64,000 nt of DNA from Myxococcales bacterium (GCA_009692425.1 SHZF01000001.1:1-64000); one strand, 5' to 3'; shown: positions 16,701 through 42,118, counted from the stretch's first letter. The notes: generated from the sequence alone by a model not told the origin. A program made the numbers and translations.

Positions 16701-19356
16701 CGATCGCTGTCCCGTTGGCCACTCCGGCCTTGATCTGGGCGGTGAACTGCAGCGTGACGGTCTGGCCCGCCGCCAGGGACGCAAGACTCCACTGCACGGC
16801 GTTGGCGCCCGCATCGAACGCGCCGCCCTGGTTGATGCCCGTCACCGTCTGGAGGTTCGCGTCCAGCGGATCGGTCACCTGGAGCGCGCCAGTCGGCAGC
16901 TTGCCGGAGTTGACCAGCGTGATCGTGTACTGGATCGCGTCGCCGGGCTCGAGGTCGCCGCCGTTGACGTCGAGCGCCGTCTTGCTCGAGGTCGTCAGGT
17001 CCGGGCCGCCTTCGACCTTCAATTGCGGGGTTTGCACGACAGTCGGCGGGTTGCCGTCGGTCGGGCTCACGGTCGCCACGTTGGCGAAGCTGACGCCGGG
17101 TGCCGTATCGTCTTTAATTTTCGCAGTGAATTTTAGCTGGACGCTGCCGCCCGCCGGGACCACGACGGTGGCGCTGACGGTCTGGCCCGTCACCTTGATC
17201 TCGGGACTCTGCGCCGCCACGAACACGAGTTGCGACGGCAACGGATCGGTGACGGTGACGATCCCCGCCGCCTGGCCGGTGTTGACGAGCGCGATCGTGA
17301 ACTGGATTTCGTCGCCCGGGCTCAGCGGCGTCCCCGGCGTCAGGTCAGCGGCGGTCTTCGTCGACGTCGTAAAGTCACTTTTCACCTCAAGCGTGAGCAC
17401 GGTCGGATCGCTGCCGCCTGGCTTGGCGGGGTCGTCGCTGGGCAGCGTCTTGCCCGACACGCTCACCTGGGCCTGCACGCCGATCGCGTGGCCCTGGATC
17501 GGCGCCACACCGAGCCCTTGTAGCGCAGCGACGTCCTTGACTTTGAGTGTCGCCGTGATCGTGACCAATTGACCGACCGCGAGCGCGATGTCGTCGAAGC
17601 GCACCTGTCCGGTCCCGTTCGCCCCGCCGTTCGGCCCCGACTTGTTCGTCCCCGGACCCGTTGCGCCGACCAGGCCGGCCTCCTTCGGTACGTCAAACAC
17701 CGCGCTGCCGACCGTGACGGCCTGCGCCGACGCGTTTTGCAGCTTGAGCGTGTAGATCACCTCGCTGCCCGGGCTCGCTGGATTCGGCGCGACCGCCAGC
17801 GTCGGCATCGCGATCAGCGGCTGGACCATCTTGACCGTCGTCGTGTTCGTTTTGAATTGATCTGTATATTTACCAAGATAGCTGTAATCGAGCGTCGCAA
17901 ACGACGTGATCGACGCGACGCCCGGGTCAGGCAGCACCTTGACCTTGAACGTCACCTTGTGCGTCGAGCCCGGCCCGGCGAGCTTCGTCGCGGTGCCGAC
18001 CGCCAGCCCTCCTTGCAGCGCACTCTTGCCGCCCGCATCGGCGACCGCCTTGCCGTCGAGCAGGGTCGAGCCGGCGACGTACTGGGTGCCCGGTGGTGGG
18101 AAGGCGTCGAGTTTGACGACCGTGCCGTCGGCGTCGAGCGGGCCGTTGTTCTGCAGGTCGATCGTGTAGGTCAGCTCCTTGCCGGCGAACGCCTCGGATT
18201 CATTGACCGTGTATTGCGTGACAGCGTTCTTGAAGTTGGGTGCCTTGCGGTTCACGACGAGCAGCGTGTAGCCGTAGAAGATCAGCTCGCCATAGCCCGA
18301 ACCCGCCTGGTTCGCGGCGTTGTTGAGGAGGTTGCCGTCGCCCGAACTCACGACATACGTCGCTTCGGTCTGATCCGTCTTCAGGTACGGGGAGATGTCG
18401 AATTGGTCAAGGTCAACGCCAGCTTCCGGCGACGAGTTGAAGACATTGTCGGCCTGTTTGTTGAGCGGAAACGACGTGAGCTTCGCCTTCGTCCCGTCCG
18501 CGGCCTGGAACTCCACATAGTCGAGACACGTCGGGCAGAATGTCGGCCCCGGCGCGTCCTGGGGCGGCACGCCGAGGTGCTCGTCGCCCTCCATCGCGTG
18601 GTACGCCAGCATCGCCTCGGGCGGATCTCCCACCAGGAAGTCCGTGATCTTGATGGTGATCTGCCCGGCACTGGCCTGGCGCTCGTCGATCATCACGAAA
18701 GCGTCGTACAGGAAAACGTCGCGCTGCGTGGTGTCGCTGAACTTCGTGTCATAGACGATGACGATTGACCACGACGCATGGCCGGCCTGGCACGCCGTGT
18801 CGCCGGGGCAGGTCGCGTTGTTCGGGCTGACTGGCTTCGACACCTTGGCCTGCACGCCGCCGACCGTGTACAGCCCGTTCCACACCGCTGGGCCCGCCGC
18901 GCCGAGCAGGGTCGTGATGTCTTTGCGGCAGTAGAAGTGCTTGCCGACGTTCTGGGTCTGGATCGGTTCGGGGTCTTGCAGGATGTGGCAGGGGCCGTCC
19001 GCGCTCAGGCCCTGTTTGCCCACGCCGGCCAGCGTCAGGTCGACCGTGGTGTCACCGTTCGTGCCATCGAGCGCGCGGCCCGCCCAATACAGGTACGCCT
19101 TGACGACGACGGCGTCATCCGGCATCGACTCGCCAACTTGGAACATGTCCGCGCTTTGCGGCAGCAGCGTGTCGTTGACGAGCTTGTTCGTGATGTTCGT
19201 GACGAGAGAGGCGCCCAGTTGCACGGCCTTGCCGTACACCTTGAACTTTTCGGGCGCGTTTGGCGGTGTCCCGACCACCACGGCGTGGGCCGCCAGCGGT
19301 GCCAGCAACGTGGCAGCCGCGACGACTGGTCCCAGCACGCGTGCCAGCCCGGGCAT
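4708..19356 (-). CDS. Giant DUF11-repeat surface protein with OmpA-like domain and C-terminal outer-membrane barrel
   Basis: 4,882 residues, near 530 kDa. A signal peptide (about 1-25, ending LAAHA) precedes an N-terminal beta domain to about 365, with the YLYWAG block. About 17 tandem DUF11/TIGR01451 repeats (roughly 365-2550) follow, each about 125-130 residues and marked by DLNGG-x-x-x-PGD-x-x-x-YT and TNTG/NTG. Next come SdrD-B/carboxypeptidase-regulatory-like modules (about 2680-2800), a polyproline hinge near 2895 (runs of 8 and 5 prolines) and a further Ca-site-like module (CDDDGDGTFDEGESGLPG). An OmpA-like domain lies at about 3665-3755 (LRSAKAAAIVAKSLQAAGV). The last 900 or so residues begin with an FYPVYADAAE module and continue as alternating amphipathic strands rich in Tyr, Trp and Arg, ending in GTY, as expected of an outer-membrane barrel. 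The start at 19356 is picked for the signal peptide; its ribosome site is weak, and it lies 23 bp after the Kelch gene. Likely a self-anchored adhesin or surface fibre; that role is inference. Confidence 0.9.
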   Translation of the reverse strand: MPGLARVLGPVVAAATLLAPLAAHAVVVGTPPNAPEKFKVYGKAVQLGASLVTNITNKLVNDTLLPQSADMFQVGESMPDDAVVVKAYLYWAGRALDGTNGDTTVDLTLAGVGKQGLSADGPCHILQDPEPIQTQNVGKHFYCRKDITTLLGAAGPAVWNGLYTVGGVQAKVSKPVSPNNATCPGDTACQAGHASWSIVIVYDTKFSDTTQRDVFLYDAFVMIDERQASAGQITIKITDFLVGDPPEAMLAYHAMEGDEHLGVPPQDAPGPTFCPTCLDYVEFQAADGTKAKLTSFPLNKQADNVFNSSPEAGVDLDQFDISPYLKTDQTEATYVVSSGDGNLLNNAANQAGSGYGELIFYGYTLLVVNRKAPNFKNAVTQYTVNESEAFAGKELTYTIDLQNNGPLDADGTVVKLDAFPPPGTQYVAGSTLLDGKAVADAGGKSALQGGLAVGTATKLAGPGSTHKVTFKVKVLPDPGVASITSFATLDYSYLGKYTDQFKTNTTTVKMVQPLIAMPTLAVAPNPASPGSEVIYTLKLQNASAQAVTVGSAVFDVPKEAGLVGATGPGTNKSGPNGGANGTGQVRFDDIALAVGQLVTITATLKVKDVAALQGLGVAPIQGHAIGVQAQVSVSGKTLPSDDPAKPGGSDPTVLTLEVKSDFTTSTKTAADLTPGTPLSPGDEIQFTIALVNTGQAAGIVTVTDPLPSQLVFVAAQSPEIKVTGQTVSATVVVPAGGSVQLKFTAKIKDDTAPGVSFANVATVSPTDGNPPTVVQTPQLKVEGGPDLTTSSKTALDVNGGDLEPGDAIQYTITLVNSGKLPTGALQVTDPLDANLQTVTGINQGGAFDAGANAVQWSLASLAAGQTVTLQFTAQIKAGVANGTAIANTATVTAPALPQPASVSVTQKVAATPKVSLFTNVVTSASGTFAPGATITYTLTLQNTGKGPLLNATLTSVVDGLLAIGAVSGGGGAVGQTVTWPIASLPAGGPPLTLTIQATLAAVIAQGAVVSNQAKLDGGGLGAPALSDDPAKPGSADPTVFSVQSAPVVAIAKTLQDLNGGSVQGGDAVLYTLSLTNTGNAPATNVVVKDVLDAAFALVAVQGGSFDAASRTAQWTVASLAPGAAAVVLQVTGTVDKAAATGKVVANVGNAAFPETPGSAQSNTVTFTIQNVADFALSTKAVNATVLKPGDPVTWTLTLENSGNAGALGVVVADKIPPEVEQVVVPGGTFDIGTQTATWSVGALAAGAKQTLTVTGVLKKPLDAGTQVCNLAQVEAQGLPAAFTRPPGSAPKPGGEPTCVSVESKALLVLEKNVFHATSGATLNQQTIKPKTPLRWALTVRNTGTSVAKNVAVTDIVPAGLTSIVPLDGGNFDATTKTVTWPKLATLGVAAGDAVTLRFEAVVAVDLDPGAAIANQGSTVAAGVPGVVSDDPTTAAALDPTLVLVASSIDFSKAKLSVVDDNGGDARPGDALTYTLVVPNDGEGTAKDVAVTVPIDSKLESVVPGAGAVVQNGAVVWQPGAIDSGQQVALTWQAKLKKPLANGAVVAAQASIAAKGLQAPALSDADLATAVKDPTILTVVALADLSTSSWTVQDLNGGSIEPGDTLAYTLTLRNTGDALALQVVANALVPAGLEDVVALANGGVSPAGVQWNVPALQLSPDGDLALAFTAKVGGSVPNNTALVVSAELPGVLKPPSVTVTVVAAPRLETSTVAADDETGWVGQVGNVAPGHVIRIDIKLVNTGKAAATNLEVSLPLPPKVTKPQAITPGAVSSGAVTWTLATLAPGGTATFVAKFEVDASAGNGDVLALLASVKATEFADALVLQGPALTVTVKAQLKVTKSWQDLTGGHLFPGDDVRFTLSVANTGNAKAGAVVLTDPLAAALVAATVENGGTLQGGLASWPLGDIAAGQAVTVAVAAKVAAGVPSGATIVNIASAQAATGAAVASNPVQVPVSYPTLVVAATLQPVAPAGSPLHPSDVVQLQVTVTAPGEAAAQVTVEAAVPSSVLEPVDLGGAGWDPKTSAVRWKPATTPGLATVAPGQPVVLTAMLRVKATAKNGVKATAQAVARDAETGLPWTSNLAELPVLAAPQLKLAKKVVDLNGGAVQPLDLLRYTLTLTVAGGAVAEAVTVTDPLDANLEVVAISQGGTTQTGPGNTLSVLWTPTTTPALALLQPGSVVEFSFDARVVAGVAHGTVIANQANAGAVDLATPIASDDPVTPTPADATVVKVQVSSGLAASVKTATDDDGTPLLAGDTITWRIAVVATGGAATDGALVFDGVPAGTDYVAGTTTLNGAAVPDAAGGKLPLSAGLAVQSLGAAAGVVLPGLANAAVVTFRTRVRKGVPDGALIANTATAMAKGDAPTAIGPVELVVGAGPSIRHTTKVAALDDANGNGIADLGEQLLYTIQVRNQGAAPADGAALDDALPGNLAWVPGTLQRDGVALTDAKDGDAGAFDLALRSVHVELGSIAPSAQVEVRFRVAINGGEVASNQAIATAKGLPPEPSDADGNDQNGNQPTVTSIGGKGPVATVTKSVQDDNGGDVEVGDFLRYTVTVGNPGGAPLIGLALVDDLPTGITAPALVGAGPGGDVLLPPGAKATLAKPDTASAGRLRVELADIAPGIHVTVSLRVQVAKAAATLGSVCNVARAELAATPDAAPVGAVSQAACFAVGAAAGDGVVAGSVFEDVGADDGVFQPERDVVLPGFTVDLAAPAGQEGPTRTGTADAQGVFRISHVAPGPHRLRVRNANGVVFTERTVTMAGGAGTLDVAVQPTGRLYDGRSGALVAGVRLVLRYDEQDPIEPGAIVTVDDLLSGQQGQQVDATGAYAFAPKSGRSYRIEVLPAGAGWLFPSSLRAPEPGVALLDGSGFVGPDVLPKAGAGQPYVVRFSRQGGPPPPPPPPGAGPPPPPATPGAAPRHNNLPVDPIATAIQLSLRLSKAEAMVGEIVHATLEVRNTSTTSLVVDPLTARGGTELRAALPRELLVVPGSPQGTYRAGTASPEVRLPLAPVEGALLAFLRVSPTAGKPVGLDLPAGGRIVIRFQTVVRPLARSGQDLQATAQVFEVGGGALSRREVARLRVLADPLFDRSLVYTSVFCDDDGDGTFDEGESGLPGALVYADTGFRASADTAGRAHFLDIAPGTHLFKLDLDSVPPGSEPTTPVGRTVYATPGTPLAIAFGLRCAVDKVGPSRIERVPRVGAPPAEAAGPGVVRLEADSGTLALAVDGKALPPRLVRARIALGADRPATLQADPTTVVLERDGDLALWVEATVGFTRHALEVREVAPAGRLGTVIVDQADNGDLPRRLVLRAFDRGRPLHPLRAGRLYLARVRGETPFGARAWSAPLAFEVMPGGPPGPRLPSPSVFRRARLLVNGHAIALVDGVRADVAIARPDDGRLLVSLRAADGSGRDEYMTLPAQLPADAAAPPSMTAPPAPPPAPPPAPASARPAPVVAVDAPVVPAPARPAAAVPVIAKPAEPKPPEPKPSVAVRPIDVPSLPASVGPRVPVALEQAADRLWIGGVKLDPRVVRTVVAAPGAALPLSSGRILGRVVIEATGVPESAASVAVVLVDAAARVKLRVPIPVPVPRTFYWEPSGGGLLPGTYGLALEVLVADASGSGMTGWRSAPVAVELATGGLGLVPPGDPDKSVRADLFDGGGVPTDSMKEWLAKLATGLKADDSKLWVVTVHDHGPGDGQLRSAKAAAIVAKSLQAAGVRGERMVVFGLGAQMPDSKPGGEKLGPHRVEVRARGLASGTSDGGEPRPFAVATGVFVDDERVGGVTGPLPATVPMRAGEPSLVARVRSDGLAELWKRTFAARPGGGPAEESAPQADGADTAFGADVLDALLAPQATATTAEPDAPADAADFAVWLPRNLGNLQSVDLVVRGRTLATNTVTIQGRSVTPDADGNFALPVRLPAGASKLVVVATDKAGNRAFLERPVNVAERQFFLLAIADASAGQVTAHLREWDQPFTTTLGPVTVHGRAAAHLRGRIAGEFLGFKDLDITAHLDTARDPGLAAFATNLFDPKRFYPVYADAAELTEGAPGTTRLYVRVDADRARLVLGSVRVKLGGPDLVRFDRSLQGLDVMVRRNLAGKLDTEVEFVAAMQDRSAVRRIDVLRGTGGSLYYLAGRDVVEGSERVELVVRDRLNSTELARLPQARNGDYTLDAREGRLLFKSPVSGSVDAGFALRGTGLAGQHLVWNGHPVFVEATYEARTFTGTDDATLGAQITERLLDGKVEVGARYVQEGHGDGPTHRTVGAHAALQLAPGSRATAEWGWSQARDALVAVSDDGGLTWGTPTQAREVGTTGVPVSGHAAAVRLDLDLGDVLGRPAVALPEGGTQASLQESGRVRAAWQWVEPGFQSAGALLQQGQQKVLLDALVPIARRHTLNVRYDGLLTRTPTPPYAGPGTGSLWGQGPLAASGSFGAQRRHLVSVRDTFRLDGRWTLDGGAAYGYGDDAAGTAHHTQTLAAGAAWKASDSLTLRGEQQVITLGDASVGSSQFPSQLDHFTTSAGVEWRLMRGLSLAVVERLGWGGQNATSAGLRAELDKASTVYVQQRFEDASGSGAFGSATVVGAEGRYGENQSTRAFGEYQVDALNPGRMNRALLGVGKRFEVAPGLQLDAGYERQQTFGGSAGEQARDVLSIGGEWLRAEKYKLSTRQELRQDEGGAPGAEARALQVVSLTNGLWGVSRELVLFGRVGWMQTWDQVADATRTEAIETTVGAAYRPTSARWLQLIGKFSHLADLRPTTVPGAAGERSVRDIFSVEPVFELPGRLQLSEKVAWRRAFEGEGDLLPVASNLLLWITRLGWHTTDKVDLLAEYRLLAALLPQDTEHGVLIEAAARVAKHLRLGLGWNFTRFVETAAGDIRRMTDAGGFFLRMTGTY

Positions 19357-19379
19357 GTGTGCGCGAGTCCGCGGGGCGG

Positions 19380-21191
19380 CTAGAACGGATTCCACAGCAT
19401 CACGTCGGTCTGGGGCTTGAGGCCGTCGGCTGTGGTGCCCACGCCGCCGACCACGAGGACATGACCCGTTGGCAATGCCAGCGCCACACCGAGCGCCCGG
19501 TTGCCGCCCAGCAGCGTGTTCTCCACATCGGCCACGACGACGATCGAGGCCTCGGGCGCGGCACCTGGCGCCGCCGCCTTGTATGGCTTCGCGAAGAGGA
19601 ATTCCGCCGAGTTCACATGGGCGCCCGTGCTCGTGCTGCCCCCGGCGACGAGAACCTGCCCAGGAAACGCGCCGGACGACACCGCCACCATCGGCGCCGC
19701 CCGGCCGACCTTGAGCTTGCCGACGCTGCCTTCGGTGAGGTACTGGCCCTTGGAGATGTCGAACACGTCGATGCGGTCGTGCGCCTTCGTTCGGGTCTGG
19801 TCGGTGAAGCCGCCGAGGATGTAGATGTAGCTGTAGAGCGGTTGGTTCGCCGGCGCCTGCACGTAGGCAGCCGACGGCAGGATGCGATCGACGGGCATGG
19901 GCGCGGTGAACGGCTTCCAGTGCTCGAGCGCGCCGGGTGGGCACACCGTAGCGCCCGCATCGGGGCAGCCGCTGTTGCGCGCCGACACCTTGCCGCCGCC
20001 CTTGTCGCTGAACTGCACGACCTCGAAATTGCGCAAGGGCCCGCTGTCATTTTCACCGCCGATCAGCACCGCGTAGCCTCCCCCCGGGCCCGGCAGCCGC
20101 ACCGAAGCATGGTTCCAGCGCGCGTCGTTGAGCAGCCCCTTGGCGACGGCGCCTTGGCTGGGATGCCAAATTTCCCAGGTGTTGCCAGCACATTCGGCCT
20201 CGCTGCCGTCCGTCGGACACTTTACGTCGCCTTCACCGCCGAGCACGAGAAAATAGTCCTGCTTGTCGAACATCGGCACGACCGTGGGCCGCGCTCGGGC
20301 GAACAGCATGTCGGGGTTCTGGCCCGTCGAGCTTTTGATTTCGAACGTCGACGTGATGTATTCGACCGACTTTGTCGGCTTCGGCACCCCATCGACCATC
20401 GCATAGCCGCCCGCGACCACGATTGCGCCGCTGCCCACGGCCACCCCGGCGAACGCGCGGGCCACCTTCAGCTTGGCGCCCGTCAGGTCCGTCAGCGAAC
20501 GCAGGGCGCGCGCATCCGTGTCGTAGACGAGCAGGGTGTCGTGGAGCTTCTCGAAGCTCGCGATGTCGTAGGGGTTCTTGGACGAGGCCTTGACGACTCC
20601 GCCGCCGATGATGAGCGCGCCACCGTGGTTCGGGATCACGACTGCCACTGCGCCGGCCCGTGCATCGGACAGCGCACGCGCGTTGTCGTCGCCGAGCGCG
20701 GGAGCGAAGCTGTTGATCTTTGTAACGTATGGCTTGAATTTTGAGGGCTTTCCGCCCAATTTCACGTCCGCCGGCAGCGACCGGCCGCGTCCGAGCAGCG
20801 GATCGCGCGGCTGGCCATTTTCCTGGGACCACAGCTCGACGCGGATCTGGCGTTGCTGGCCAAACGGCACGACCGGCAGCGTGACCTTGGCACCGGTTCC
20901 CTTCTTGTCCTTGTCGTATCTCTGCAGGGTAAAGACCTTGTTCTCCGGCACGCCTGGACCTTCGGCGGTGAGTGCGACGAAGGCGACGCCGTCGAGATCG
21001 AACGGGTCGTCGGGCGCCGCCGGTGCGTGCACTTCGAGTGCGATGCCGTCTGGTGGCGGTGTCGTGGCCTGCGCGCAAGCGGCGAGGGCCACGCTGCCCA
21101 GCGCGACAGCGGCAAAGTACCGCAACCTCGGTCGCAACCCCGCAGTGCACGGAGCAATTGGGTGGATTTCTGATTGACGCTCTCGGGGCAT
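19380..21191 (-). CDS. Kelch-repeat lipoprotein
   Basis: 603 residues. The signal sequence ends in a lipobox (VALAACAQ), so it is predicted to be a lipoprotein. Several Kelch-type blades are visible by their glycine pairs and following beta strands (GAIVVAGGYAMVDG, GGYAVLIGGEND, YIYILGGFTD, GQVLVAGGSTST, GHVLVVGGVGTT), which implies a beta-propeller filling residues 150-600, preceded by a small beta domain. Kelch propellers bind proteins or sugars; the ligand is unknown. The start at 21191 (GAGG upstream) is preferred to one 10 codons earlier that has no ribosome site. It sits between the PEGA gene (33 bp) and the giant protein (23 bp), most likely in one transcript. Confidence 0.83.
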   Translation of the reverse strand: MPRERQSEIHPIAPCTAGLRPRLRYFAAVALGSVALAACAQATTPPPDGIALEVHAPAAPDDPFDLDGVAFVALTAEGPGVPENKVFTLQRYDKDKKGTGAKVTLPVVPFGQQRQIRVELWSQENGQPRDPLLGRGRSLPADVKLGGKPSKFKPYVTKINSFAPALGDDNARALSDARAGAVAVVIPNHGGALIIGGGVVKASSKNPYDIASFEKLHDTLLVYDTDARALRSLTDLTGAKLKVARAFAGVAVGSGAIVVAGGYAMVDGVPKPTKSVEYITSTFEIKSSTGQNPDMLFARARPTVVPMFDKQDYFLVLGGEGDVKCPTDGSEAECAGNTWEIWHPSQGAVAKGLLNDARWNHASVRLPGPGGGYAVLIGGENDSGPLRNFEVVQFSDKGGGKVSARNSGCPDAGATVCPPGALEHWKPFTAPMPVDRILPSAAYVQAPANQPLYSYIYILGGFTDQTRTKAHDRIDVFDISKGQYLTEGSVGKLKVGRAAPMVAVSSGAFPGQVLVAGGSTSTGAHVNSAEFLFAKPYKAAAPGAAPEASIVVVADVENTLLGGNRALGVALALPTGHVLVVGGVGTTADGLKPQTDVMLWNPF

Positions 21192-21224
21192 GGGTCTCGA
21201 TCCTCGCGGCGGCGGGCGCATCGG

Positions 21225-22817
21225 TCAGGGCAATTGGGCGGTGGCGCGAAAGCCGGCGGCGGGCGGGGGGGTCCGTGTAGCGAACCACACGCGCGTACCG
21301 GCGGCCGCGACGGCTACGACGCCGACGCTCACCCAGAACCACGCGGTTTTGTAGAAGGACCTGCGCGCAGCCGGGTCTTCTGTCGTCAACAGGCCCGCGT
21401 AGGGGTCGTCCACCGTCGCAGGGTCCGGCTTCGGCTCCGGTCGGGGCCGCACCACGCGCGGCTCGGGGCGGGGCTCTGGCTTGGGCTCAGGTTTCGGCTC
21501 CGCGCGCGGCTCGTGGCGCGGTTCCGGGGCGACTTCGGGCTCGGGCTCGGTCGGAGGCGTTGGCACGATCGAGGGCGCAGCGACCGCACTGACTGCGGGC
21601 CGCGCGTAGACCTCCGGTACGTCCCGCACCTCGCTGCCCGCCGGACAGCCGCCCAACGCTGTGCGAACACGCCCTTCGGCGTCGAGCGTTTTCATCTGCA
21701 GATCAGAGAGGTTCGAGTTGTACTCGACTTTTTCCAGCGCGCACACCTTCCGCAATGCGCCATTGACCAGGAACAGGTGCAGTTCGAGCCCCCGCGTGGA
21801 GCGCGCCACCACTCCGTAGAGCAAGTGCGAGGCTCGAATCTGCCGCGTGAACAACGCTATGGAATTCTTGAAGACTTTTTCACTGAACTTGCCCGAATCG
21901 GCAAACGCCTTCATGTCGGCGGGGTCGACCTGCAGGCCGATCTGGTTCGCCGGGTCTTCCTCGAGTTCGAGCTTGGCCGTGACGGCAATCGGCTTGCCTT
22001 TCGCATTGACCGTCATGCCCCACGGCTTGGCGCCGGATTTGCGCGCCTGGATGTAGTGGATGCCTGGGAAGAGGTCTTTGACCGTCGCTGGCGTCGCGCC
22101 AATCTTGACCCCATCGACGTAGGCGTCGCAGTCTGGCTGGTTGCACTCGACGCTGACCTCGGTCGGGTCGCGCCCCGCCAGTTGCTGCCGCGAGGCCGTG
22201 ACCATTGTCTGCAACTGCTTGTTGCTCTTGCGGGCATCGACCACGAATGTCGGCTGCAGCGTCAACGCCTTGGCCACCCAGTCGCGCGCCGCGCCCTCGT
22301 TGCGCTGCAGCAAGGCCGCCGTCGCCGCCTGGGCATAGACATCGACGAGCTTCGTAAAATCGACGAGTTCGACGTAGTTCTGTTCGTAGCGAGCCGCTGC
22401 CGCCAGCAGAAGTTTCAAGATGTCGGCAGGTTCCTCACCCTCCTCCATCATCGAACGCGCCGTCACGGCCAGCGTGTCCGCCTTGTCGAGGGCGCGGCTC
22501 GCGGCCGTAACAGCTCGGTCTTTGGGTGCGTTTGTCGCCGCTGCTGGATTCAGCGGTCGCCCCGTTTCGACGACCTTGGCCGGCAGCAGGCGCACGGTAC
22601 CGCCCGCGTCGAGCATCTGGCGCAGGTACTCCTCGATGCGGGCCACGAGCAGCACGCCGACTTCGCCACGCCGGGCAAACCCGACGATGCCGAGCGCCGA
22701 CTTGTCCTCCTGGGCGTGCGCGATGCCCATTCGCAGCCGCGGCAGATCGACCGGCAACGTAAGAAGCCCCGTCACGATCGGCACAAAAAGAGCGCGCGCA
22801 AGAAACTGGATGCGCAC
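21225..22817 (-). CDS. PEGA-domain protein with Pro/Glu-rich linker and C-terminal membrane helix
   Basis: 530 residues from a GTG at 22817, chosen because GAGGAGG stands 6 bases upstream; no ATG nearby has such a site. An N-terminal signal segment ends near IAHAQ. The middle third is helical and includes ELVDFTKL and LTLQPTFVVD. A PEGA-like beta domain follows (DAYVDGVKIGATPATVKDLFPGIHYIQ as its core, about 220-270). After a further domain comes a long linker of repeated PEPKPEP/EPR units (about 430-480), then a single transmembrane helix (AWFWVSVGVVAVAAAGTRVW) near the C terminus. PEGA domains are linked to surface-layer or wall contact. The protein is a clear paralogue of the product of 48318-49571, sharing the ELVDFTKL region and the PEGA fold. 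Confidence 0.82.
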   Translation of the reverse strand: MRIQFLARALFVPIVTGLLTLPVDLPRLRMGIAHAQEDKSALGIVGFARRGEVGVLLVARIEEYLRQMLDAGGTVRLLPAKVVETGRPLNPAAATNAPKDRAVTAASRALDKADTLAVTARSMMEEGEEPADILKLLLAAAARYEQNYVELVDFTKLVDVYAQAATAALLQRNEGAARDWVAKALTLQPTFVVDARKSNKQLQTMVTASRQQLAGRDPTEVSVECNQPDCDAYVDGVKIGATPATVKDLFPGIHYIQARKSGAKPWGMTVNAKGKPIAVTAKLELEEDPANQIGLQVDPADMKAFADSGKFSEKVFKNSIALFTRQIRASHLLYGVVARSTRGLELHLFLVNGALRKVCALEKVEYNSNLSDLQMKTLDAEGRVRTALGGCPAGSEVRDVPEVYARPAVSAVAAPSIVPTPPTEPEPEVAPEPRHEPRAEPKPEPKPEPRPEPRVVRPRPEPKPDPATVDDPYAGLLTTEDPAARRSFYKTAWFWVSVGVVAVAAAGTRVWFATRTPPPAAGFRATAQLP

Positions 22818-22836
22818 TGGAAACCTCCTCGCCGGC

Positions 22837-22856
22837 CCGGGCTGGGGCGAGCCCGG
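22837..22856 (-). other. Leader hairpin before the PEGA gene
   Basis: In the minus-strand transcript a perfect 7-bp stem (CCGGGCT with AGCCCGG, six-base loop) ends 6 bases before the strong GAGGAGG ribosome site of the PEGA gene. It could modulate translation. The rest of the 207-bp spacer (22818-23024) shows no gene and no other clear element. Confidence 0.35.
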
Positions 22857-23024
22857 ATGGGGCCGACGCAGCATGACAGTGTGCCGCACGGACCTGGAAC
22901 TGCCAAACTTCTCGCGGGCTCCGGTGCAAGCGCACCTGCCGTTGTGCGCCAGCGAGCCAGCGCACGCGACCGGCAATGATAGACGTCACGGCCGCGCTGG
23001 CAACTGGCAGTCCCCGCCGTTGGC

Positions 23025-23882
23025 CTAATCGCGCGCCACGACGGCGACGCCAACCGGCACGCCGAGGGCTGCCTTGAGTGCAACGGCTCGGGTGCCTGCG
23101 TGCAGGTCGAGCATCGTCGACGAGCCGCCGTCGAGGTTGAGGGCGTCGACCAGGCCCGGGCCTCCGTTTCGAGCCGTGTGGGCCAGCGCGGCGGCGAACT
23201 CTGCCAACGACAGCGCGCCGTCCGTGGCGGCGATGACCACCTGGCCGTGCGCGTCGGTTCCCAACGCCGTGCGGCGGGCGCGTGCGGTGTCCCGAAATGC
23301 TGGCGTGCTGCCGGCGACGAGCAGTCGGGGCCCGCACTGCAGAGCGAACTCGAGCGCGGCCGGTGCGACCCATTCCTTGGCGTGTTGAAGCCCCGCGCGA
23401 CCCGCCCCAACAGTGAACACCCCCTGGTCAACCCGGCGCAGCGGCCCCAACTGGCGGCCACGGCTCACGCGCAGGCCCAGCGGCTGGAACTGGGGGTCGA
23501 AGTAGCCCGCGTTGACGGCCAGTACGCCGCCGACCGCTTCGCGAAAAGTCCGCGCATCCGCCAGGGGTTGCTTGGTCGCTGTGCTGTCGACGAGGACGAG
23601 TTCCCAGCGGTTGAGCACGATGCGCACGAGGTGGATGGCGAGATCGCCACCTGCCCCGGTGTGCGTTTCGGCCCTCGCGTACTCCAAGCCCGGCTGCAGC
23701 GATTGCCAGCGCAGCGGCTCCGGTGCCGGCGCACGACCGCACGCCGCGAGGACACCGGACAGCGCGAGCAACCGGACGCCTGCTCTCCACCTGGACTGCT
23801 CGCGGGCAAGGCGCGCCGACCTCGTGCCCACGGCGAAGAACGGGGAGCGCCCGTGTGGGCTAGAGTTGCGAGGTGATCGCAT
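23025..23882 (-). CDS. Phosphodiester glycosidase-like (NAGPA/DUF2233) lipoprotein
   Basis: 285 residues. A hydrophobic stretch ending in a lipobox (LSGVLAACGRA) predicts lipidation. The body matches the NAGPA family (PF09992): AVNAGYFDPQFQPLG (the family's N-G-x-F block), then GTDAHGQVVIAATDG and the glycine-rich ALNLDGGSSTMLD signature. Members hydrolyse sugar phosphodiesters (uncovering enzyme) or are tied to exopolysaccharide processing in bacteria. The ATG at 23882 overlaps the stop of the upstream fusion gene by 23 bp; a GTG at 23831 is an alternative that would shorten the signal region by 17 residues. Neither has a strong ribosome site. Role in surface glycan trimming is inferred from family and neighbours. 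Confidence 0.83.
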   Translation of the reverse strand: MRSPRNSSPHGRSPFFAVGTRSARLAREQSRWRAGVRLLALSGVLAACGRAPAPEPLRWQSLQPGLEYARAETHTGAGGDLAIHLVRIVLNRWELVLVDSTATKQPLADARTFREAVGGVLAVNAGYFDPQFQPLGLRVSRGRQLGPLRRVDQGVFTVGAGRAGLQHAKEWVAPAALEFALQCGPRLLVAGSTPAFRDTARARRTALGTDAHGQVVIAATDGALSLAEFAAALAHTARNGGPGLVDALNLDGGSSTMLDLHAGTRAVALKAALGVPVGVAVVARD

Positions 23883-26373
23883 TGCGCAGCGGCTCGAGTT
23901 GCTCCTCAGGCTTGAAACCTGTCGCGTAGTAGCGCACGACGCCCTGGCGATCGATGATGAACGTCGCTGGCATCGAGTAGACGTTGAACTGCCCCATCAG
24001 TTCGGACTCCGGGTCGCCGATGATCGGGAACGGGACCTCGAAGCCCTTGGCGAACTCGACCGCGCGCGCCGTCTCCCGGTCCACGCCTATCGAAAACACC
24101 TGGAAGCCTTTGCCTTTGTGCTGCTTGTACAGCGCGACGAGTTCGGGCATCTCCTTCTTGCAGGGTCCGCACCAGCTCGCGAAGAAGTTCAGGAGCGTGA
24201 CCTTGCCCTTGAATTGCGCCGTATCGACCTCGGTTCCGTCGTCTGCCTTGACCTTGAAGGCGGGCACGGGCTTGCCGACAAGGTCCGCGTCCGTGACCTG
24301 AACGTCGCCCGCGCCGGCGCCCTGCTGCACGACGTCCTGATCCGCGCAGCAGCGGAAGCCCGTCGTCATGTTGCGGTTGCCGATGCCGAAACTGGCGGAG
24401 CGTTGGTTGCACGCCGCACGCTCGCCCGAAGAAACATGGCCGCCCATCTGTCCTGCCGTCTCCTTCGTTGTCCCGGTCCACTCGCCGATGTTGCCGCCCA
24501 GGTCGAACAACCCGGAAGCGGTGCGGCAGCCCTCCTTGATCCCGGTCTTCAACGGTTTTCCCTTGTACTTGTCTTCTTGATCCACGCACTTGCCTGCCTC
24601 GTAGAAGGAACCGTACGGATACATGTTCCCTTCGACGTTGTCGTCGGCGAACTGCTGGTTCGTGTTCTCGTCGATCGCGGGCGTGGCCGTACACGCGCTG
24701 ACCCACTCCTCTTCCGTGCACAGGCGCTTGCCCGCTTTTTTGCACGCCGCTTCGGACTCCATCCACGACGCCATGGCGGGCTCGACGTTTGGCAGGCTCA
24801 GCGCGCGCCCGTCCTTGCTCAGCGACGCCTCGTACGGGTCGATCCAGAACGAACCCCTTGCGGTCTTCGCCTCGAGCATGTGCGAGCCGTCGGGCTTGGG
24901 TGCCAGCGCCTGGGCTGCCGCATTCGTCCCATACCCGCCTTCAGGGCAGTGATCCGTGCTCGCGAGAGCCTTCTGGATGTAGTAGTCGAGGATTGACGTC
25001 GACGCCGAACCCGTGACGAGGCGGTTGTTGATGTACGTGCGCGGAGCCCCGTAAGCGCCGGACTTGATGGTCAGCTCGATGTCGCTCGTGAGGCGCTGCA
25101 ACACCTTGGGATCCTTGACGCACTCGTCATACTTTGCCAGGTCGAGTCCGAGCTCCTGTGCGTACTGGCGGTTGGCGACCGGGTCGAGCTTTGGTTGGTT
25201 GGCGTAGAGCTTGTCGTGCATGTCCCAGAACTTACCCTGGTGGTTGGCGCACACGGCCGTGATGTGGGCGTTGCACGCGTTGGGGTGCTTGTCGTAGCCC
25301 TGCATGTAGCGATTGCAGGTCGGGTTCATGGGGAAGTGCTTCATCACGAAGCGGACCTTGTCCTTGTACTTCTCCTTCAGCGGTTCCATCGTGAGCGCGA
25401 GGTAGCGGCAGTAGGGGCACTCGAAGTCGGAGTACTTCACGACCGTGACCTTGGCGTCCTGCGGGCCGAAGAACGAGTCCTGTTCATCGAGCGGCGTGTT
25501 GAAAAGTGTCCAACCATCGTCGGTTTTCTGGCCACCATGCTCGCCGGGCTGCAGGCAGCCTTGCTTGGCGCCTGCCGGGCCCGCGGCCGCCACTGGAGCC
25601 GTCTGCGCCCCGGCGCCGCCCGTGATCGATCCCGACCCTTGCGCGGCGGCCACGGTCGTCTGTGCCGCCGGCGCTCCCCCGCCGAACTGGGCGTCGATCT
25701 TGGCCTTGTACTCCGTTTCCATGCGCGCCTTGACGCTGTCGTACGCCAACCACGCGCCGCCGCCGGCGATGACGACCACGCCCAGCGCGAGCGGAACCGG
25801 CTCGGCGAACTTGACGAGCGCAGCGAAGGCCGTCTCGATCGCCTTGCCGACCGTCTTGGGCCCCGCCGCGATCGCAAGCCCGGTCGCAGTCAGGTTCACG
25901 GCGTAGAGCGAGATGCAGTACAGGCAATACGCCTCGACCACCGACGTCGAGTAGTATGCGAGAAACATAGAGAAAAGCACCGTCAGGATGCCGATCCCCG
26001 CCGCCGCACTTAGGGCCGTGGCGCCGATCGCGCGCTGGCCCGCGTCCGTGGCCTTGAGAGCGCCCAGGGCGACGTACCCGAGGTAGCCCTGCACGGCATA
26101 GGTCGGCACGGCAAGCAGGCTGACGGGTAGGCCGAACACCTCGGACCACCCGGAAACGTTGACCTTGTCGCAGTTGATCGCGCCGCCCAGGTTGCAACTC
26201 GACACGTAGGTCGGGTCGAGCGTGATGTGGAGCTTGTGGCGCACGAGCCAGATGGAGACGCCGAGGCCGGCGGCGAGCACGGCGAACAGGGCGTAGATCA
26301 GGCCAGGGCCGCTGGGCAGGCCGTTCGACGCTGCGGCAGGCGCGGGTGCGGGCGGGGCTGTCTCGGTCGACAT
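23860..26373 (-). CDS. Four-module redox fusion: VKOR - DsbA-like - FGE-like - TlpA-like thioredoxin
   Basis: 837 residues. (1) A membrane VKOR domain at about 25-170: helices near 25-45, 82-105, 115-142 and 152-170, the loop pair C60/C68 and the active CXXC at C150-L-Y-C153. (2) A fifth helix at about 195-212 and an Ala/Gly linker lead to a DsbA-like thioredoxin fold, about 285-470, with C319-P-Y-C322 and the cis-Pro block GAPRTYINN. (3) An FGE/SUMF1-like domain, about 500-676 (FWIDPYEAS, RLCTEEEWVSAC, DLGGNIGEWTG, GFRCCAD). (4) A TlpA/AhpC-type thioredoxin, about 697-837, with WC735-G-P-C738 and MPATFIIDRQG. VKOR enzymes pass electrons from DsbA-like partners to quinones, so modules 1 and 2 should form a self-contained disulfide generator; module 4 looks like a reductase or isomerase. 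GGAG lies 7 bases before the ATG. It heads the run of exported Cys-rich proteins, which are plausible substrates. Confidence 0.93.
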   Translation of the reverse strand: MSTETAPPAPAPAAASNGLPSGPGLIYALFAVLAAGLGVSIWLVRHKLHITLDPTYVSSCNLGGAINCDKVNVSGWSEVFGLPVSLLAVPTYAVQGYLGYVALGALKATDAGQRAIGATALSAAAGIGILTVLFSMFLAYYSTSVVEAYCLYCISLYAVNLTATGLAIAAGPKTVGKAIETAFAALVKFAEPVPLALGVVVIAGGGAWLAYDSVKARMETEYKAKIDAQFGGGAPAAQTTVAAAQGSGSITGGAGAQTAPVAAAGPAGAKQGCLQPGEHGGQKTDDGWTLFNTPLDEQDSFFGPQDAKVTVVKYSDFECPYCRYLALTMEPLKEKYKDKVRFVMKHFPMNPTCNRYMQGYDKHPNACNAHITAVCANHQGKFWDMHDKLYANQPKLDPVANRQYAQELGLDLAKYDECVKDPKVLQRLTSDIELTIKSGAYGAPRTYINNRLVTGSASTSILDYYIQKALASTDHCPEGGYGTNAAAQALAPKPDGSHMLEAKTARGSFWIDPYEASLSKDGRALSLPNVEPAMASWMESEAACKKAGKRLCTEEEWVSACTATPAIDENTNQQFADDNVEGNMYPYGSFYEAGKCVDQEDKYKGKPLKTGIKEGCRTASGLFDLGGNIGEWTGTTKETAGQMGGHVSSGERAACNQRSASFGIGNRNMTTGFRCCADQDVVQQGAGAGDVQVTDADLVGKPVPAFKVKADDGTEVDTAQFKGKVTLLNFFASWCGPCKKEMPELVALYKQHKGKGFQVFSIGVDRETARAVEFAKGFEVPFPIIGDPESELMGQFNVYSMPATFIIDRQGVVRYYATGFKPEEQLEPLRNAITSQL

Positions 26374-26485: not shown

Positions 26486-26527
26486 CGCACCGGCCCGGTG
26501 GACTATTCCGCTTGCGCCCAGGAACGC

Positions 26528-27874
26528 ATGATGCCCCAGGTGATCGTGATCGGTGGCGGCCTCGCTGGCTGCGAATGCGCGTGGCAGTTGGCCCGCCATG
26601 GCATTGCCGTAAGGCTGATGGAAATGAAGCCGCACCGGCGCAGCGCCGCCCACGTGACCGACGGCCTCGCCGAACTCGTGTGCTCGAACAGCTTTCGCAG
26701 CGACAATCCGCACAACGCGATCGGGCTCCTGCACGAAGAATTGCGTGTGCTTGGCTCCCTGATCCTGACGGCTGCCGACGCGGCGCGCGTGCCCGCCGGC
26801 GACGCCCTCGCGGTCGATCGCGCGCTGTTTGCCGCAGCTGTGGAAGGCGCCCTGCAAGAGCACCCGCTCATCGAACTCACCCGCACCGAGGCGTGCGAAT
26901 TGCCGGTCGACGCAGGTGTCCCGATCGTCGTCGCGACGGGTCCGCTGACGTCAGACGCCCTGGCCGCTCAACTCGTGGCGCTCACGGGCCGCGATCGGCT
27001 TGCGTTCTACGATGCGATCGCCCCGGTCCTCGACGCGGACAGCCTGGACCACGACGAGATGTTTGCCGCCTCGCGCTGGGGCAAGGGCGACGGCGCCGAC
27101 TACCTGAACTGCCCGCTCGACAAGCCGGGGTATGAGGCGTTCGTCGCGGCCCTGCTCGCCGCCGAGACCATGCCATTGCAGGATTTTGAGAAAGATGTCC
27201 ACTACTTCAGTGGATGCCAACCGATCGAGGTGATCGCCGCATCGGGGCCGCAAAGCTTGCGCTTCGGGCCGATGAAGCCAGTCGGCCTCACCGACCCGCG
27301 CACGGGACGCTGGCCGTGGGCCGTCGTGCAGCTGCGCGCAGAAAACCGCCACGGCACCGCGTGGAACCTCGTCGGCTTCCAGACAAAGATGCGCCAGGCA
27401 GACCAACGGCGCGTGTTCGGGATGCTCCCCGGGCTGCGCTCCGCCGAGTTCCTGCGCTACGGCACAGTGCACCGCAACACGTTTCTCGACAGCCCGCGCC
27501 TGCTCGACGAGGCGATGGCGCTGCGCTCGCTGCCGCAGGTGCGCTTTGCCGGCCAGATCACGGGCGTCGAGGGCTACGTAGAATCGACCGCATCGGGGTA
27601 TTGGGTCGGTGCGCGGTTGGCGGCGGACTTGGGTGGCATCGAATTGCACCTGCCGCCGGCAACCACGGCGTTGGGGGCCCTGCTGCAGCATGTGCTCGAC
27701 GCCGGGAACCCCAATTTCCAGCCATCTAACGTACACTTTGGCCTATTCGAGCCGCTCGACGCCGGGCCCCGCCGCAACAAGATCGACCGCAAACTGGCCC
27801 ACTGCGAGCGGGCCCGGCGTGATCTGGCCGGCTGGATGGGCGCACTCGGATGGCCGCTTCCCGTGGCGGCTTGA
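26528..27874 (+). CDS. trmFO: Methylenetetrahydrofolate-tRNA-(uracil-54-C5)-methyltransferase
   Basis: 448 residues. TrmFO makes ribothymidine at position 54 of the tRNA T loop, using methylenetetrahydrofolate and FADH2. The N-terminal FAD motif reads VIVIGGGLAGCECAW. The catalytic cysteine in the conserved LVCSNSFRSD block is C52, and the second conserved Cys lies in YFSGCQPIE. Further family blocks are WGKGDGADYLNCPL, RFGPMKPVGL, NLVGFQTKM and EFLRYGTVHRNTF. Length fits the family (435-450). The ATG at 26528 has AGGA about 5 bases upstream; the next codon is also ATG and could be used. Folate-type TrmFO rather than TrmA is usual in Firmicutes, alpha- and delta-proteobacteria. Confidence 0.96.
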   Translation: MMPQVIVIGGGLAGCECAWQLARHGIAVRLMEMKPHRRSAAHVTDGLAELVCSNSFRSDNPHNAIGLLHEELRVLGSLILTAADAARVPAGDALAVDRALFAAAVEGALQEHPLIELTRTEACELPVDAGVPIVVATGPLTSDALAAQLVALTGRDRLAFYDAIAPVLDADSLDHDEMFAASRWGKGDGADYLNCPLDKPGYEAFVAALLAAETMPLQDFEKDVHYFSGCQPIEVIAASGPQSLRFGPMKPVGLTDPRTGRWPWAVVQLRAENRHGTAWNLVGFQTKMRQADQRRVFGMLPGLRSAEFLRYGTVHRNTFLDSPRLLDEAMALRSLPQVRFAGQITGVEGYVESTASGYWVGARLAADLGGIELHLPPATTALGALLQHVLDAGNPNFQPSNVHFGLFEPLDAGPRRNKIDRKLAHCERARRDLAGWMGALGWPLPVAA

Positions 27875-30588: not shown

Positions 30589-33417
30589 CTACGGCAAGGC
30601 CGGGTCGACCGTGGCGGCATCCAAGTGCACGCGGTACAGCGCGCTCGTGCCGGCATCGATGACATAGGCGCGTGGCAACGAAGGCACCGTGACCGTGGCG
30701 ACCGGCAGCGCGAAACTGCCGACCACGCGCGCGTCGAGTCCCGCCGATACTGCGAAGAGCCACGTCGCGTCGCGGATCGCGGGGAGCCATTTCGTTTCCG
30801 ACGTGCCGCCCTTGCCCGCTACCTTCGCACAACCGGGCACGATGCGTGCCGAGAAGACCGGGTGGGCAAAGGACGGCACGGCGAGCGTCGCGAGATCGGT
30901 CGCCTTGGGCGGGCAACTGGCCGTCCAGTTCGCAGGCACGGCGGGGTTGGCCAGACGACCGCCGCTGCCTTCAATCCACGTCAGCCCGCGGCACTGGCCA
31001 TCGACTGCCGCGCGACTCGACAGCAGGCCCGTGCGCGTGCCCGTGACGAGCCACCCCGGTGCGCGAATGGCGTATGCAACGGCATTCGCCAGGCAGCCGG
31101 GCCCCGGCAACGGCACGCGCTCCACCGTCGTGACCAAGGCCTTCTGGTTCGCGAGCGTCACGGCCACGTCGCGCACGCCGTCGTCGAGCAATCGCAGCGA
31201 GTCTGCCTCGACCGCGCCGACCGTGTAGCGTGCGGGCCCGGCCTTGGCGACCCCGCACGGTTCGCGCGCGGGCAGATCGAGGGTTACCGTGTCGCCCGGC
31301 AGCACACCCAGGCGGCAGAAATCGGCACCCGCATCGTGCAGCCGATCTTTTGTGACCATGCGGCCTGTCGCCCGCACGCCACCGGGCAGCGTGCCCTCGA
31401 AGGCGAGGCGCCACGTCTCGGAGCGGTGTTCCATCTGATCCGACCCCAGCGTCATGCCATACCAACTCGTGGCGCCACCCGCAGTCGTCGTCTTTTCGAG
31501 TCGGCCCAGCGCTGCATAGCGTTCGGGAATGACGAAGCCAAGGTCGACCGTCGCCCCGCCGAGTTGCAGGCCAGGCAGGCTGACTTCGCTCGCCCGACCA
31601 TCGACCAGCCACTCGACTGCTGGGATGCGCTCCAGGTTGGCCACGGCACCGCCCGCCGTCGTCGCGCTCGCCAACACGGGCAGGTCGAGCGCCAGGGTCT
31701 GCACACCGCCGCCCGCCATCGCAACTTCGATCGCCTGCCGGCCGTGCACGATTGCCGCGGCCATCGACTCGGGCGCGCCGGGGAGTGCCACGCCGCCCAC
31801 GCCGTCGCGCGCATCAAGCGCCGAGGTCCGCACGAATGCAGACGCGCCGCCGGCCAGGGGCTGCACTCGCGTGAGCGTCGTGACATCAAAGACCTGCACG
31901 ACGCGCCGCGCGCGGTCGGCTGCGACCAGCCAACGGCCGTTGAAACTCGCCGCGATGAGCGTGCCTGGCGCTGCGGAAGCGGGGGCTTCCGACGGCGAGT
32001 CGCGCCCGTAGCAGTCTGGGTCGTCCAGGTCCACACGACCGTCGCCATCGTCGTCCAACCTGTTGTCGCAGGGAACGGCGATGGCTGCGGCGCCCGGAGG
32101 CGCGGCACATTCGGCGTCGGCACCATCCTTGGCACCGTCGCCGTCATTGTCTACGCCGTCCTGGCAGGCATGCGCTGCAGTCGGGGAGTCGGGCAGCCAT
32201 TCCACGCCCGGGTTCAAGCACTCCTGGTCCGAAGTGTCCGTGTGGCCGTCGCCATCGTTGTCCAGGCCATCCTGGCACGTCGACGCATCGCTCCACTCCG
32301 AGGTGTCGCCGAAGCCAGAACACCCCGCGTCGGCAGGGAAGTCGGCGTGCCCGTCGCCGTCGTCATCGACTCCGTTCCGGCAGGCATCGGCTGGCGAGGC
32401 CGCGTCACAGCCGAGGTCTGCCGCGTCCACTCGGCCGTCGCCGTCGTCGTCCAGACCGTTGCTGCAGTCCACGACGCCGCGCTCGGGTGCTGCCTCGCTG
32501 GGGTCGTCGGGTCCGTCGCAGCCTGGGTCGTCGCGGTCGGCGAGGCCGTCGCCGTCGCCGTCGAAGCCGTCGCTGCAGGCAGGCCGGAGCGGCAGTCGGC
32601 GCACGTGGACGGGCACTGCCGCCGTGACATCGTATACATCGAGCCATGGGTGGGCCGCGTGGCCGACGAAAAGCCATGACTGGCCGGCTGCAGGCGACGC
32701 AAACGCCAGCGCGGCTGGCGTGCCGCCGACAGCAACTGTGGTCGCCGGCGCCGAACTGTCGAACGCGCCCAGCGGGACCGCGATGACCGTCCCGTGCGCA
32801 GCATCGGCGACCCACACCCTGCCACCCCACACCGCGACGGCCTGGGCAAAACCGGGTGTCGCATCGGCGGGCAGGGCGACGACCAAGCCGCTGCGGGCGA
32901 AAGAGCCGTGCTTGTCGGGCGCAAGGCGCACGAGTTCCCTGCGATCCAGCAAGCTCACATAGACCATGCCTGTCGCAGGGTCCGCCGCCATCGGCCCGAC
33001 GACCCCTGCGACCGCGATCGGCGTGATGCCCGGCACATCGGCACGGTGGTCGATCCATGTCGCCGCGGACGGTCGGGCCACCGCAACAGTGCCCGACAGG
33101 CCGCCGCCGACCAGCACGCGGATGCGGCTCTCCTGGCAGTCGGCGCCCGCCGCCCCCGCGAGATCGGCCCGCAGGCACACTACGGCGCCCGACCGAGCAC
33201 TGCGCATGCCGTCGAGGACGGGCGCCGTCGCGTCAGCGCAACTCGCGGTCACGCCGCCCACCCAGCACACGAGCAGGTAGGCGCAGAACTGCACACGCAC
33301 ATTCGCGATCCGGACCTGCCGGTTCATGGAGCCGCGCATGTTCATGGAGCCGCGGATGTTCATGGAGCCGCGGATGTTCATGGAGCCGCGGATGTTCATG
33401 GAGCCGCGGATGTTCAT
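30589..33417 (-). CDS. Propeller lipoprotein interrupted by six calcium-binding-type repeats
   Basis: Up to 942 residues. The frame opens with five copies of MNIRGS/MNMRGS from an 18-bp DNA array, each with an in-frame ATG; the ATG at 33417 overlaps the upstream stop as ATGA. The last ATG (33327) begins a normal export signal (MNRQVRIANV, then CAYLLVCWVGGVTASC), so it may be the main start. A YVTN/NHL-like propeller half (MVYVSLLDRRELVRL, GGRVWVADAAHG) is followed, at about residues 280-470, by six repeats of the form C-x-(N/D)-G-x-D-x-DGDG-x-x-D-x-x-D-x-x-C, as in MopE-type putative metal-binding motifs. Propeller-like sequence then resumes (GTLIAASFNGRWLVAADRA) to the end. Probably surface-exposed. 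Function not known. Confidence 0.82.
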   Translation of the reverse strand: MNIRGSMNIRGSMNIRGSMNIRGSMNMRGSMNRQVRIANVRVQFCAYLLVCWVGGVTASCADATAPVLDGMRSARSGAVVCLRADLAGAAGADCQESRIRVLVGGGLSGTVAVARPSAATWIDHRADVPGITPIAVAGVVGPMAADPATGMVYVSLLDRRELVRLAPDKHGSFARSGLVVALPADATPGFAQAVAVWGGRVWVADAAHGTVIAVPLGAFDSSAPATTVAVGGTPAALAFASPAAGQSWLFVGHAAHPWLDVYDVTAAVPVHVRRLPLRPACSDGFDGDGDGLADRDDPGCDGPDDPSEAAPERGVVDCSNGLDDDGDGRVDAADLGCDAASPADACRNGVDDDGDGHADFPADAGCSGFGDTSEWSDASTCQDGLDNDGDGHTDTSDQECLNPGVEWLPDSPTAAHACQDGVDNDGDGAKDGADAECAAPPGAAAIAVPCDNRLDDDGDGRVDLDDPDCYGRDSPSEAPASAAPGTLIAASFNGRWLVAADRARRVVQVFDVTTLTRVQPLAGGASAFVRTSALDARDGVGGVALPGAPESMAAAIVHGRQAIEVAMAGGGVQTLALDLPVLASATTAGGAVANLERIPAVEWLVDGRASEVSLPGLQLGGATVDLGFVIPERYAALGRLEKTTTAGGATSWYGMTLGSDQMEHRSETWRLAFEGTLPGGVRATGRMVTKDRLHDAGADFCRLGVLPGDTVTLDLPAREPCGVAKAGPARYTVGAVEADSLRLLDDGVRDVAVTLANQKALVTTVERVPLPGPGCLANAVAYAIRAPGWLVTGTRTGLLSSRAAVDGQCRGLTWIEGSGGRLANPAVPANWTASCPPKATDLATLAVPSFAHPVFSARIVPGCAKVAGKGGTSETKWLPAIRDATWLFAVSAGLDARVVGSFALPVATVTVPSLPRAYVIDAGTSALYRVHLDAATVDPALP

Positions 33418-41104: not shown

Positions 41105-42118
41105 CTACTCCACGCAAAACCCGACATCGCCGGCCCGCGGCTGGCCGTCGGGCGAGAGGAGCGGCGAGCATTTTCCCACGCAGGATTGCGGACCTCCGAG
41201 CGTCGAACATTTCTTGCGGCACACCGCCGCGCCACCGGCGTCGAGGCAGAGGTGGCCCGGCAGGCAGTCCGCCGCCGAGGTGCACGTGGCACCCGCCACC
41301 GCCTTGCCCGTACCGATGCACGCCTTGATCCAACCCGCCGGCGCGCACGTCTGTCCACTCGCACAACCCTGATCCGTCAAGACATCGCAGGCGTCGCCCG
41401 ACTTGCACGCGCCGAGGTTCTTGCCCGCCGCACCTGCGCCGGAGAACACGATCTTTTCGCAGGGTACGCCCGGCTTGCAGGCCCATTGCGAAGTCGCCGT
41501 CGTCGCGCAGATCGTGCGGCACACGCCAGCGATGCAGAGGTGCCCCCACGCGCAGTCGTTCCAGCCAGCGCAGGCGGCGCCGTGGGGCTTTTTACCCGGA
41601 TTGAGGCACACGTTGCCGCCGGGATCCGGAAAGCACTGCAGGCCGTCGCCACATCCCGCGGATCCGACCGGCTCGCATCCGGCCGTCGGGCTCGCTTCGG
41701 CCGGCAGACCGCCGTCGCTCGCGGTGGCGTCGCCCGGCAGCAGCAAGTCTCCCCCAACGGCGGCATCCGCGAGCACCTGGGAGGCCGCGTCGGACCCTGG
41801 AGCCGCACCTGTGTCGAAGCCGTCCGAGGCCGGCGCGCCCGCGTCCAGCGTCACGCCGGCGGCCGGCGGCCCGCGGAACACCGGTCCGCTGTCCTTGGTC
41901 GCATCCAGCGCCGACGTGGCCGCGGAGTCTTCTTCCGGCGGCAGTGCGCACGCCGGCAGGTGCGCCACCGCCAGCAGGGCCGCGGCCACCAGCGCCGCAC
42001 GCCCCGTCCCGGCCACCCGCGAACTGGTTGCGATCCCGCGGGCCCGGCGAGCCGGCAGGGGCTGGCAAACCGCAACCGACCGCAAGCGGTGCGAGAATTC
42101 GTGCAAGGCGCGGGTCAC
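41105..42118 (-). CDS. Cysteine-rich lipoprotein with acidic linker
   Basis: 337 residues from a GTG at 42118 that overlaps the stop of the upstream gene (GTGA). The export signal is unusually deep: the hydrophobic stretch (ALVAAALLAVAHLPAC) ends near residue 58, so a downstream GTG at 42017 is an alternative start. A low-complexity Ala/Asp/Gly linker covers about 60-125. The rest is a Cys-rich module array (CGDGLQCFPDPGGNVC, CAWGHLCIAGVC, CASGQTCAPAGWIKAC, CLPGHLCLDAGGAAVC), a pattern common in myxobacterial secreted proteins. No function recognised. Confidence 0.75.
   Translation of the reverse strand: MTRALHEFSHRLRSVAVCQPLPARRARGIATSSRVAGTGRAALVAAALLAVAHLPACALPPEEDSAATSALDATKDSGPVFRGPPAAGVTLDAGAPASDGFDTGAAPGSDAASQVLADAAVGGDLLLPGDATASDGGLPAEASPTAGCEPVGSAGCGDGLQCFPDPGGNVCLNPGKKPHGAACAGWNDCAWGHLCIAGVCRTICATTATSQWACKPGVPCEKIVFSGAGAAGKNLGACKSGDACDVLTDQGCASGQTCAPAGWIKACIGTGKAVAGATCTSAADCLPGHLCLDAGGAAVCRKKCSTLGGPQSCVGKCSPLLSPDGQPRAGDVGFCVE

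Follow-up and report, generated by a model that had tools for sequence, protein, structure and literature searches.

Within the analysed window, a 64,000-nucleotide stretch of a Myxococcales genome (GCA_009692425.1, SHZF01000001.1:1-64000), one minus-strand gene was found to encode a chain of four domains, VKOR, DsbA-like, FGE-like and TlpA-like, and its product is probably a membrane-anchored, self-contained disulfide-forming enzyme. The preliminary description had proposed a one-chain device containing an oxidase and an electron exit, and this part of it is well supported by the domains, the VKOR Cys4-Ser set, the conservation of the protein, and the lack of DsbB or any other VKOR in the source genome.

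The gene runs from ATG to stop through 837 codons with zero internal stops, and its GC content by codon position (0.61/0.47/0.87) indicates that it is coding. Pfam matches were obtained in the order VKOR (2e-20), Thioredoxin_4/DSBA (1e-18), FGE-sulfatase (residues 528 to 638, 5e-11, a partial match) and Redoxin/AhpC-TSA (3e-30), which is the order first proposed, and the CXXC sites C150/C153 (CLYC), C319/C322 (CPYC) and C735/C738 (WCGPC) lie where they were originally placed (Table 1). AlphaFold2 modelling on the family alignment gave a mean pLDDT of 89 and a pTM of 0.65 for the full chain, with a second, short disordered tether at residues 478 to 486 in addition to the long one. The junction between the FGE-like and TlpA domains was modelled confidently, without a disordered linker.

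Table 1. Coordinates of the four-domain gene, its parts and other genes of the window
Feature	Position	Strand	Basis or remark
Four-domain protein gene (P0001)	23860..26373	-	Single open frame and homologs; 837 aa
VKOR domain, residues 29-166	25876..26289	-	Pfam PF07884; followed by a fifth helix that reaches about residue 214-231
VKOR loop cysteines C60-x7-C68	26170..26196	-	Invariant where aligned; Ser74 at C68+6
VKOR CLYC, C150/C153	25915..25926	-	Conserved except in two degenerate paralogs
Flexible Ala/Gly/Gln-rich tether, residues 233-270	25564..25677	-	pLDDT < 50
DsbA-like domain, residues 298-467	24973..25482	-	Pfam PF13462/PF01323; Foldseek 3gyk, BdbD
DsbA active site CPYC, C319/C322	25408..25419	-	Sequence and alignment of relatives
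FGE/pFGE-like domain, residues 486-682	24328..24918	-	PF03781 core 24460-24792; SUMF2 1y4j profile; fold search
TlpA/ResA-like thioredoxin domain, residues 699-826	23896..24279	-	Pfam; PDB ResA; Foldseek 4nmu, 3gl3, 2f9s
TlpA active site CGPC, C735/C738	24160..24171	-	Kept in every relative with the domain
NAGPA (phosphodiester glycosidase) protein	23025..23882	-	Pfam PF09992; first of the syntenic downstream group
PEGA-domain protein (start uncertain)	21225..22976	-	Syntenic, downstream
Kelch-repeat secreted protein	19380..21221	-	Syntenic, downstream
TrmFO/GidA	26498..27874	+	Divergent upstream neighbour
MopE-motif protein, 61 Cys	42115-44292	-	
Secreted-type protein, about 15 EGF-like domains, 107 Cys	51594-56387	+	

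The VKOR domain scored 73.6 bits against PF07884 (cut-off 27.5), and its profile matched the human VKOR, VKOR-like and Synechococcus VKOR-Trx structures. The Cys4-Ser set is present and nearly invariant, with C150/C153 in helix 4; the loop pair C60/C68 and Ser74, which complete the VKOR signature, had been missed in the preliminary description. In the AlphaFold2 model the helices fit five membrane spans. The cysteine-bearing loops share one face of the membrane, and most of the short loops bearing Lys or Arg lie on the opposite face, consistent with periplasmic redox domains; the DsbA, pFGE-like and TlpA domains are all predicted on this same side. The domain that follows has a thioredoxin fold with a helical insert, the CPYC site and a cis-proline, P444, which is invariant within GAPRT or GTPRT in the aligned relatives. 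VKOR and DsbA stand in succession on one chain, as in VKOR-DsbA fusions, and the chain continues past the DsbA domain into the pFGE-like and TlpA domains.

Conservation was assessed on an alignment of 69 relatives. Wherever they aligned, the cysteines of VKOR and the CxxC of DsbA were conserved, with two paralogs as the exceptions (L148:2303-4792 and L149:2500-4848); these retain the multi-domain layout, but their DsbA CxxC is gone and their VKOR CxxC is partly or wholly lost. Four further DsbA-domain cysteines (353, 367, 375 and 418) were invariant in the 69 relatives, as were all eight that the FGE-like domain contains. Retention of these twelve in both paralogs, despite the lost pairs, suggests that they form structural disulfides rather than redox sites. 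The paralogs themselves appear to have no enzymatic function and might instead act as regulators or bind clients.

No match to DsbB was found in the source genome or in any of the 22 genomes of its family, some of which are incomplete. VKOR was present in 22/22 of these, and the four-domain protein was the only VKOR in 10/22 (again with some genomes incomplete), including the source genome, where it is the single VKOR. As the source genome contains neither DsbB nor another VKOR, the four-domain protein is, as read from the genome, its only recognisable quinone-linked source of disulfides. Other DsbA-like proteins are encoded there (L174-L176), so the DsbA domain of the chain need not be the main donor. 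Two of them (L174:1-2034 and L175:1697-3790) carry three tandem DsbA-like domains each, and the last site of the second is CPFS rather than CxxC.

In the proposed mechanism, the VKOR domain would pass electrons from thiols to the membrane quinone, thereby making disulfides; its loop cysteines C60/C68 would re-oxidise the CPYC site of the tethered DsbA domain, which would in turn donate its disulfide to exported proteins. A Clostridium VKOR-DsbA fusion is known to complement E. coli dsbA dsbB double mutants (PMC12453122). The TlpA domain would provide a second thiol-disulfide site acting on the same clients, most simply as a further oxidising or shuffling arm belonging to the same pathway.

The C-terminal domain is a WCxxC thioredoxin domain of the TlpA/AhpC-TSA class; its closest NCBIfam subfamily was ResA, and Foldseek placed it with ResA and CcmG. 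Proteins of the ResA, CcmG and TlpA types are classically reductants. The TlpA-like DsbE and DsbF of Mycobacterium are oxidants (PMC3853704), and since the class includes both, the domain may work as an oxidant, an isomerase or a reductase. The isomerase or reductase role first proposed is possible. About 31 kb past the window end, the source genome encodes a DsbD-type transmembrane protein whose C-terminus is a WCANC thioredoxin (L177:2060-4015); it is the likely reducing partner system and could feed electrons to TlpA, which would argue against a purely oxidative reading. It is conceivable, if rather unlikely, that the chain works in both directions, with VKOR-DsbA oxidising and a TlpA domain, kept reduced by the DsbD-type protein, reducing or reshuffling incorrect disulfides while the FGE-like domain holds the client. 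The resemblance of the TlpA domain to the reductase-type ResA/TlpA/CcmG proteins and the presence of the DsbD-type gene favour such a device, but a reductant and a quinone oxidase on one chain risk a futile cycle unless kinetically shielded, and the mycobacterial oxidants show that a TlpA-like domain need not reduce. The full version, in which one bacterial polypeptide would both make and correct disulfides by VKOR-DsbA oxidation and DsbD-fed TlpA proofreading, with the dead FGE fold as client receptor, is a doubtful proposal.

The association of TlpA with the rest of the chain was also found in a split form. Twelve relatives end just past GFRCC and are without the TlpA domain; they form one clade, consistent with one change (100/99), and a contig ends within a thirteenth three-domain gene (L137). 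Immediately upstream, and in the same direction, a separate TlpA gene was found at the 12/12 loci of this clade and at a partly matched locus (L138), and at least ten of the junctions between the two genes are 4-nt ATGA or GTGA overlaps. Fused and stand-alone TlpAs formed one group, separate from 46 other TlpA/ResA proteins (97/88), in a tree with poor internal resolution and two degenerate rows far out. By these gene arrangements, TlpA is independently tied to the VKOR-DsbA-FGE core through an upstream ortholog in a sister clade. Selenocysteine at an in-frame TGA or TAG, considered for some relatives, was rejected, as the three-domain gene naturally ends after GFRCC. At one locus (L135:3032-8293) TlpA, VKOR-DsbA-FGE, a second TlpA-like gene (WCGIC) and VKOR-DsbA-FGE-TlpA follow each other on one strand. 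This tandem array looks like a step between the split and fused forms and suggests that the C-terminal TlpA may have arisen by operon duplication followed by fusion, in a comparison where the order of fused and split forms is unrooted.

The predicted NAGPA start overlaps the end of the four-domain gene by 23 nt. At about 21 loci of the family the four-domain gene is followed downstream by NAGPA, PEGA and Kelch genes on its own strand, with a divergent TrmFO on the other side in 13 of these; the NAGPA-PEGA-Kelch synteny was not seen at the loci of relatives outside the family. The closest TlpA relative, ResA, and this synteny would fit a maturation factor dedicated to one client class, for example cytochrome c or the NAGPA-PEGA-Kelch products, rather than to general oxidative folding. 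Such a restricted role is nonetheless improbable: the synteny is confined to the family, no cytochrome c maturation gene was found among the identified neighbours, and a general role is simpler for a protein that is the only VKOR in 10/22 family genomes, none of which has DsbB. The preliminary description of many Cys-rich secreted proteins among the neighbours, as plausible clients, is only partly correct. Two such proteins, the 15-EGF-repeat and the MopE-motif protein, do occur 16 to 25 kb away, but the adjoining NAGPA, PEGA and Kelch proteins are not Cys-rich. The protein with about 15 EGF-like domains is unusual for a bacterium and is a plausible client of the four-domain enzyme. Elsewhere in the window, the minus strand contains an open frame of great length, about 5,078 codons (4708-19944), and an ORF (30589-33417) with a repeated MNIRGS/MNMRGS unit at its N-terminus, where several in-frame ATG codons are candidate starts.

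When modelled alone, the FGE-like domain reached a pLDDT of 95 and matched CalU17, pFGE/SUMF2, EgtB and FGE in Foldseek, with E values of about 1e-7 to 1e-6 for pFGE and FGE. The best PDB sequence match of the family profile was SUMF2 (1y4j), an inactive FGE paralog. In human FGE, Cys336 and Cys341 are catalytic, and structural disulfides join 235-346 and 218-365 (PMC4505483). C544, C561, C655 and the GFRC cysteine of the family align on human positions 218, 235, 346 and 365, and the copper-binding catalytic pair was absent in 69/69 relatives, the stretch around 341 being skipped and position 336 occupied by a residue other than Cys. The label "FGE-like" therefore holds for the fold, by Pfam and Foldseek, but not for the enzyme function. 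An active formylglycine-generating enzyme, acting on sulfatases handed over by the redox domains, would account for the Pfam match and the fold; it was rejected as very improbable because the catalytic cysteines are missing, C655 corresponds to structural Cys346 with Cys341 skipped, and SUMF2/pFGE is the nearest profile. The domain is better read, from its residues, as a disulfide-braced binding or structural domain. With about four disulfides, the dead domain would hold or position a client or partner of the disulfide-forming enzyme, a role we infer from its fold, its lost catalytic residues and its position. Many bacterial FGE domains lack catalytic residues and are extended by kinase, caspase, DinB, NACHT-type or PEGA domains (PMC5915273); a redox fusion is not among the partners given in that survey.

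Homologs were detected in 22/22 genomes of the family, mostly at full length and with 49 to 67% identity, and 59/379 genomes sampled across the phylum hold a relative (E < 1e-60). The frames of these relatives are mostly intact. Contigs were scanned for relatives with exact peptide patterns from one protein, so that distant members were missed. The close relatives with named records belong to uncultured Myxococcales or Deltaproteobacteria and come for the most part from metagenome assemblies; one record titled as a Klebsiella pneumoniae MAG (L015) groups deep in the myxobacterial clade and is probably a mislabelled bin. In three other phyla, 291 sampled genomes from that of a Bacteriovoracaceae record (L030) gave one match, to DsbA only, and no match was found in 297 and 289 sampled genomes from those of Terriglobia (L048) and Verrucomicrobiota (L077) records, an empty answer that carries little weight. 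The source genome is a fragmented assembly of 137 contigs, but an assembly or gene-calling artefact fusing separate genes, such as a missed stop or frameshift, was ruled out with near certainty, as intact frames of the same order, with conserved synteny, recur in many separate assemblies.

Fusions of VKOR with Trx or DsbA are already known (PMC4555120, PMC12453122). The Synechococcus VKOR (3kp9/4nv2) and the Clostridium sp. VKOR-DsbA share with the present protein the Cys4-Ser set, a fifth helix and a periplasmic thioredoxin-fold partner, whereas the pFGE-like and TlpA domains, the long flexible tether before DsbA and the four additional structural DsbA cysteines are peculiar to the latter. 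SUMF2/pFGE, the OCTIN superfamily, the EgtB C-domain and PvdO have in common with its third domain the FGE (C-type-lectin-like) fold without the catalytic Cys pair, and the cysteines equivalent to human FGE 218/365 and 235/346 are kept as in SUMF2/pFGE-type proteins; here, however, the domain stands between two thioredoxin-fold domains and has four extra invariant cysteines. ResA/TlpA/CcmG/StoA and mycobacterial DsbE/DsbF likewise contain a WCGPC thioredoxin domain of the TlpA/Redoxin class, but as lone anchored thioredoxins rather than at the C-terminus of a VKOR-DsbA chain or as an overlapping operon partner. The division of labour among quinone oxidase, disulfide donor and second thioredoxin is presumably shared with E. 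coli DsbA/DsbB and DsbC/DsbD, except that VKOR replaces the absent DsbB and several parts lie on one chain. The four-part order had been called unusual; it is not unique to the source genome, since it recurs across the phylum, and no description of the FGE-like/TlpA extension was found in a search of the open literature. The chain is a real, widespread extension of VKOR-DsbA fusions and apparently, if provisionally, an undescribed one.

The protein could serve as a compact tool for the production of disulfide-rich proteins. Its architecture suggests that a dead FGE fold can have a redox-linked role, and the fused chain and its natural split form provide an experimental pair for the question of how an oxidising and a TlpA-type domain cooperate without short-circuit. 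Exported disulfides in the source genome, and by the same searches in nine other family genomes, have the four-domain protein as their only recognisable quinone-linked source, and the bacterium encodes secreted proteins for which dozens of disulfides are predicted, among them the 15-EGF protein of the window.
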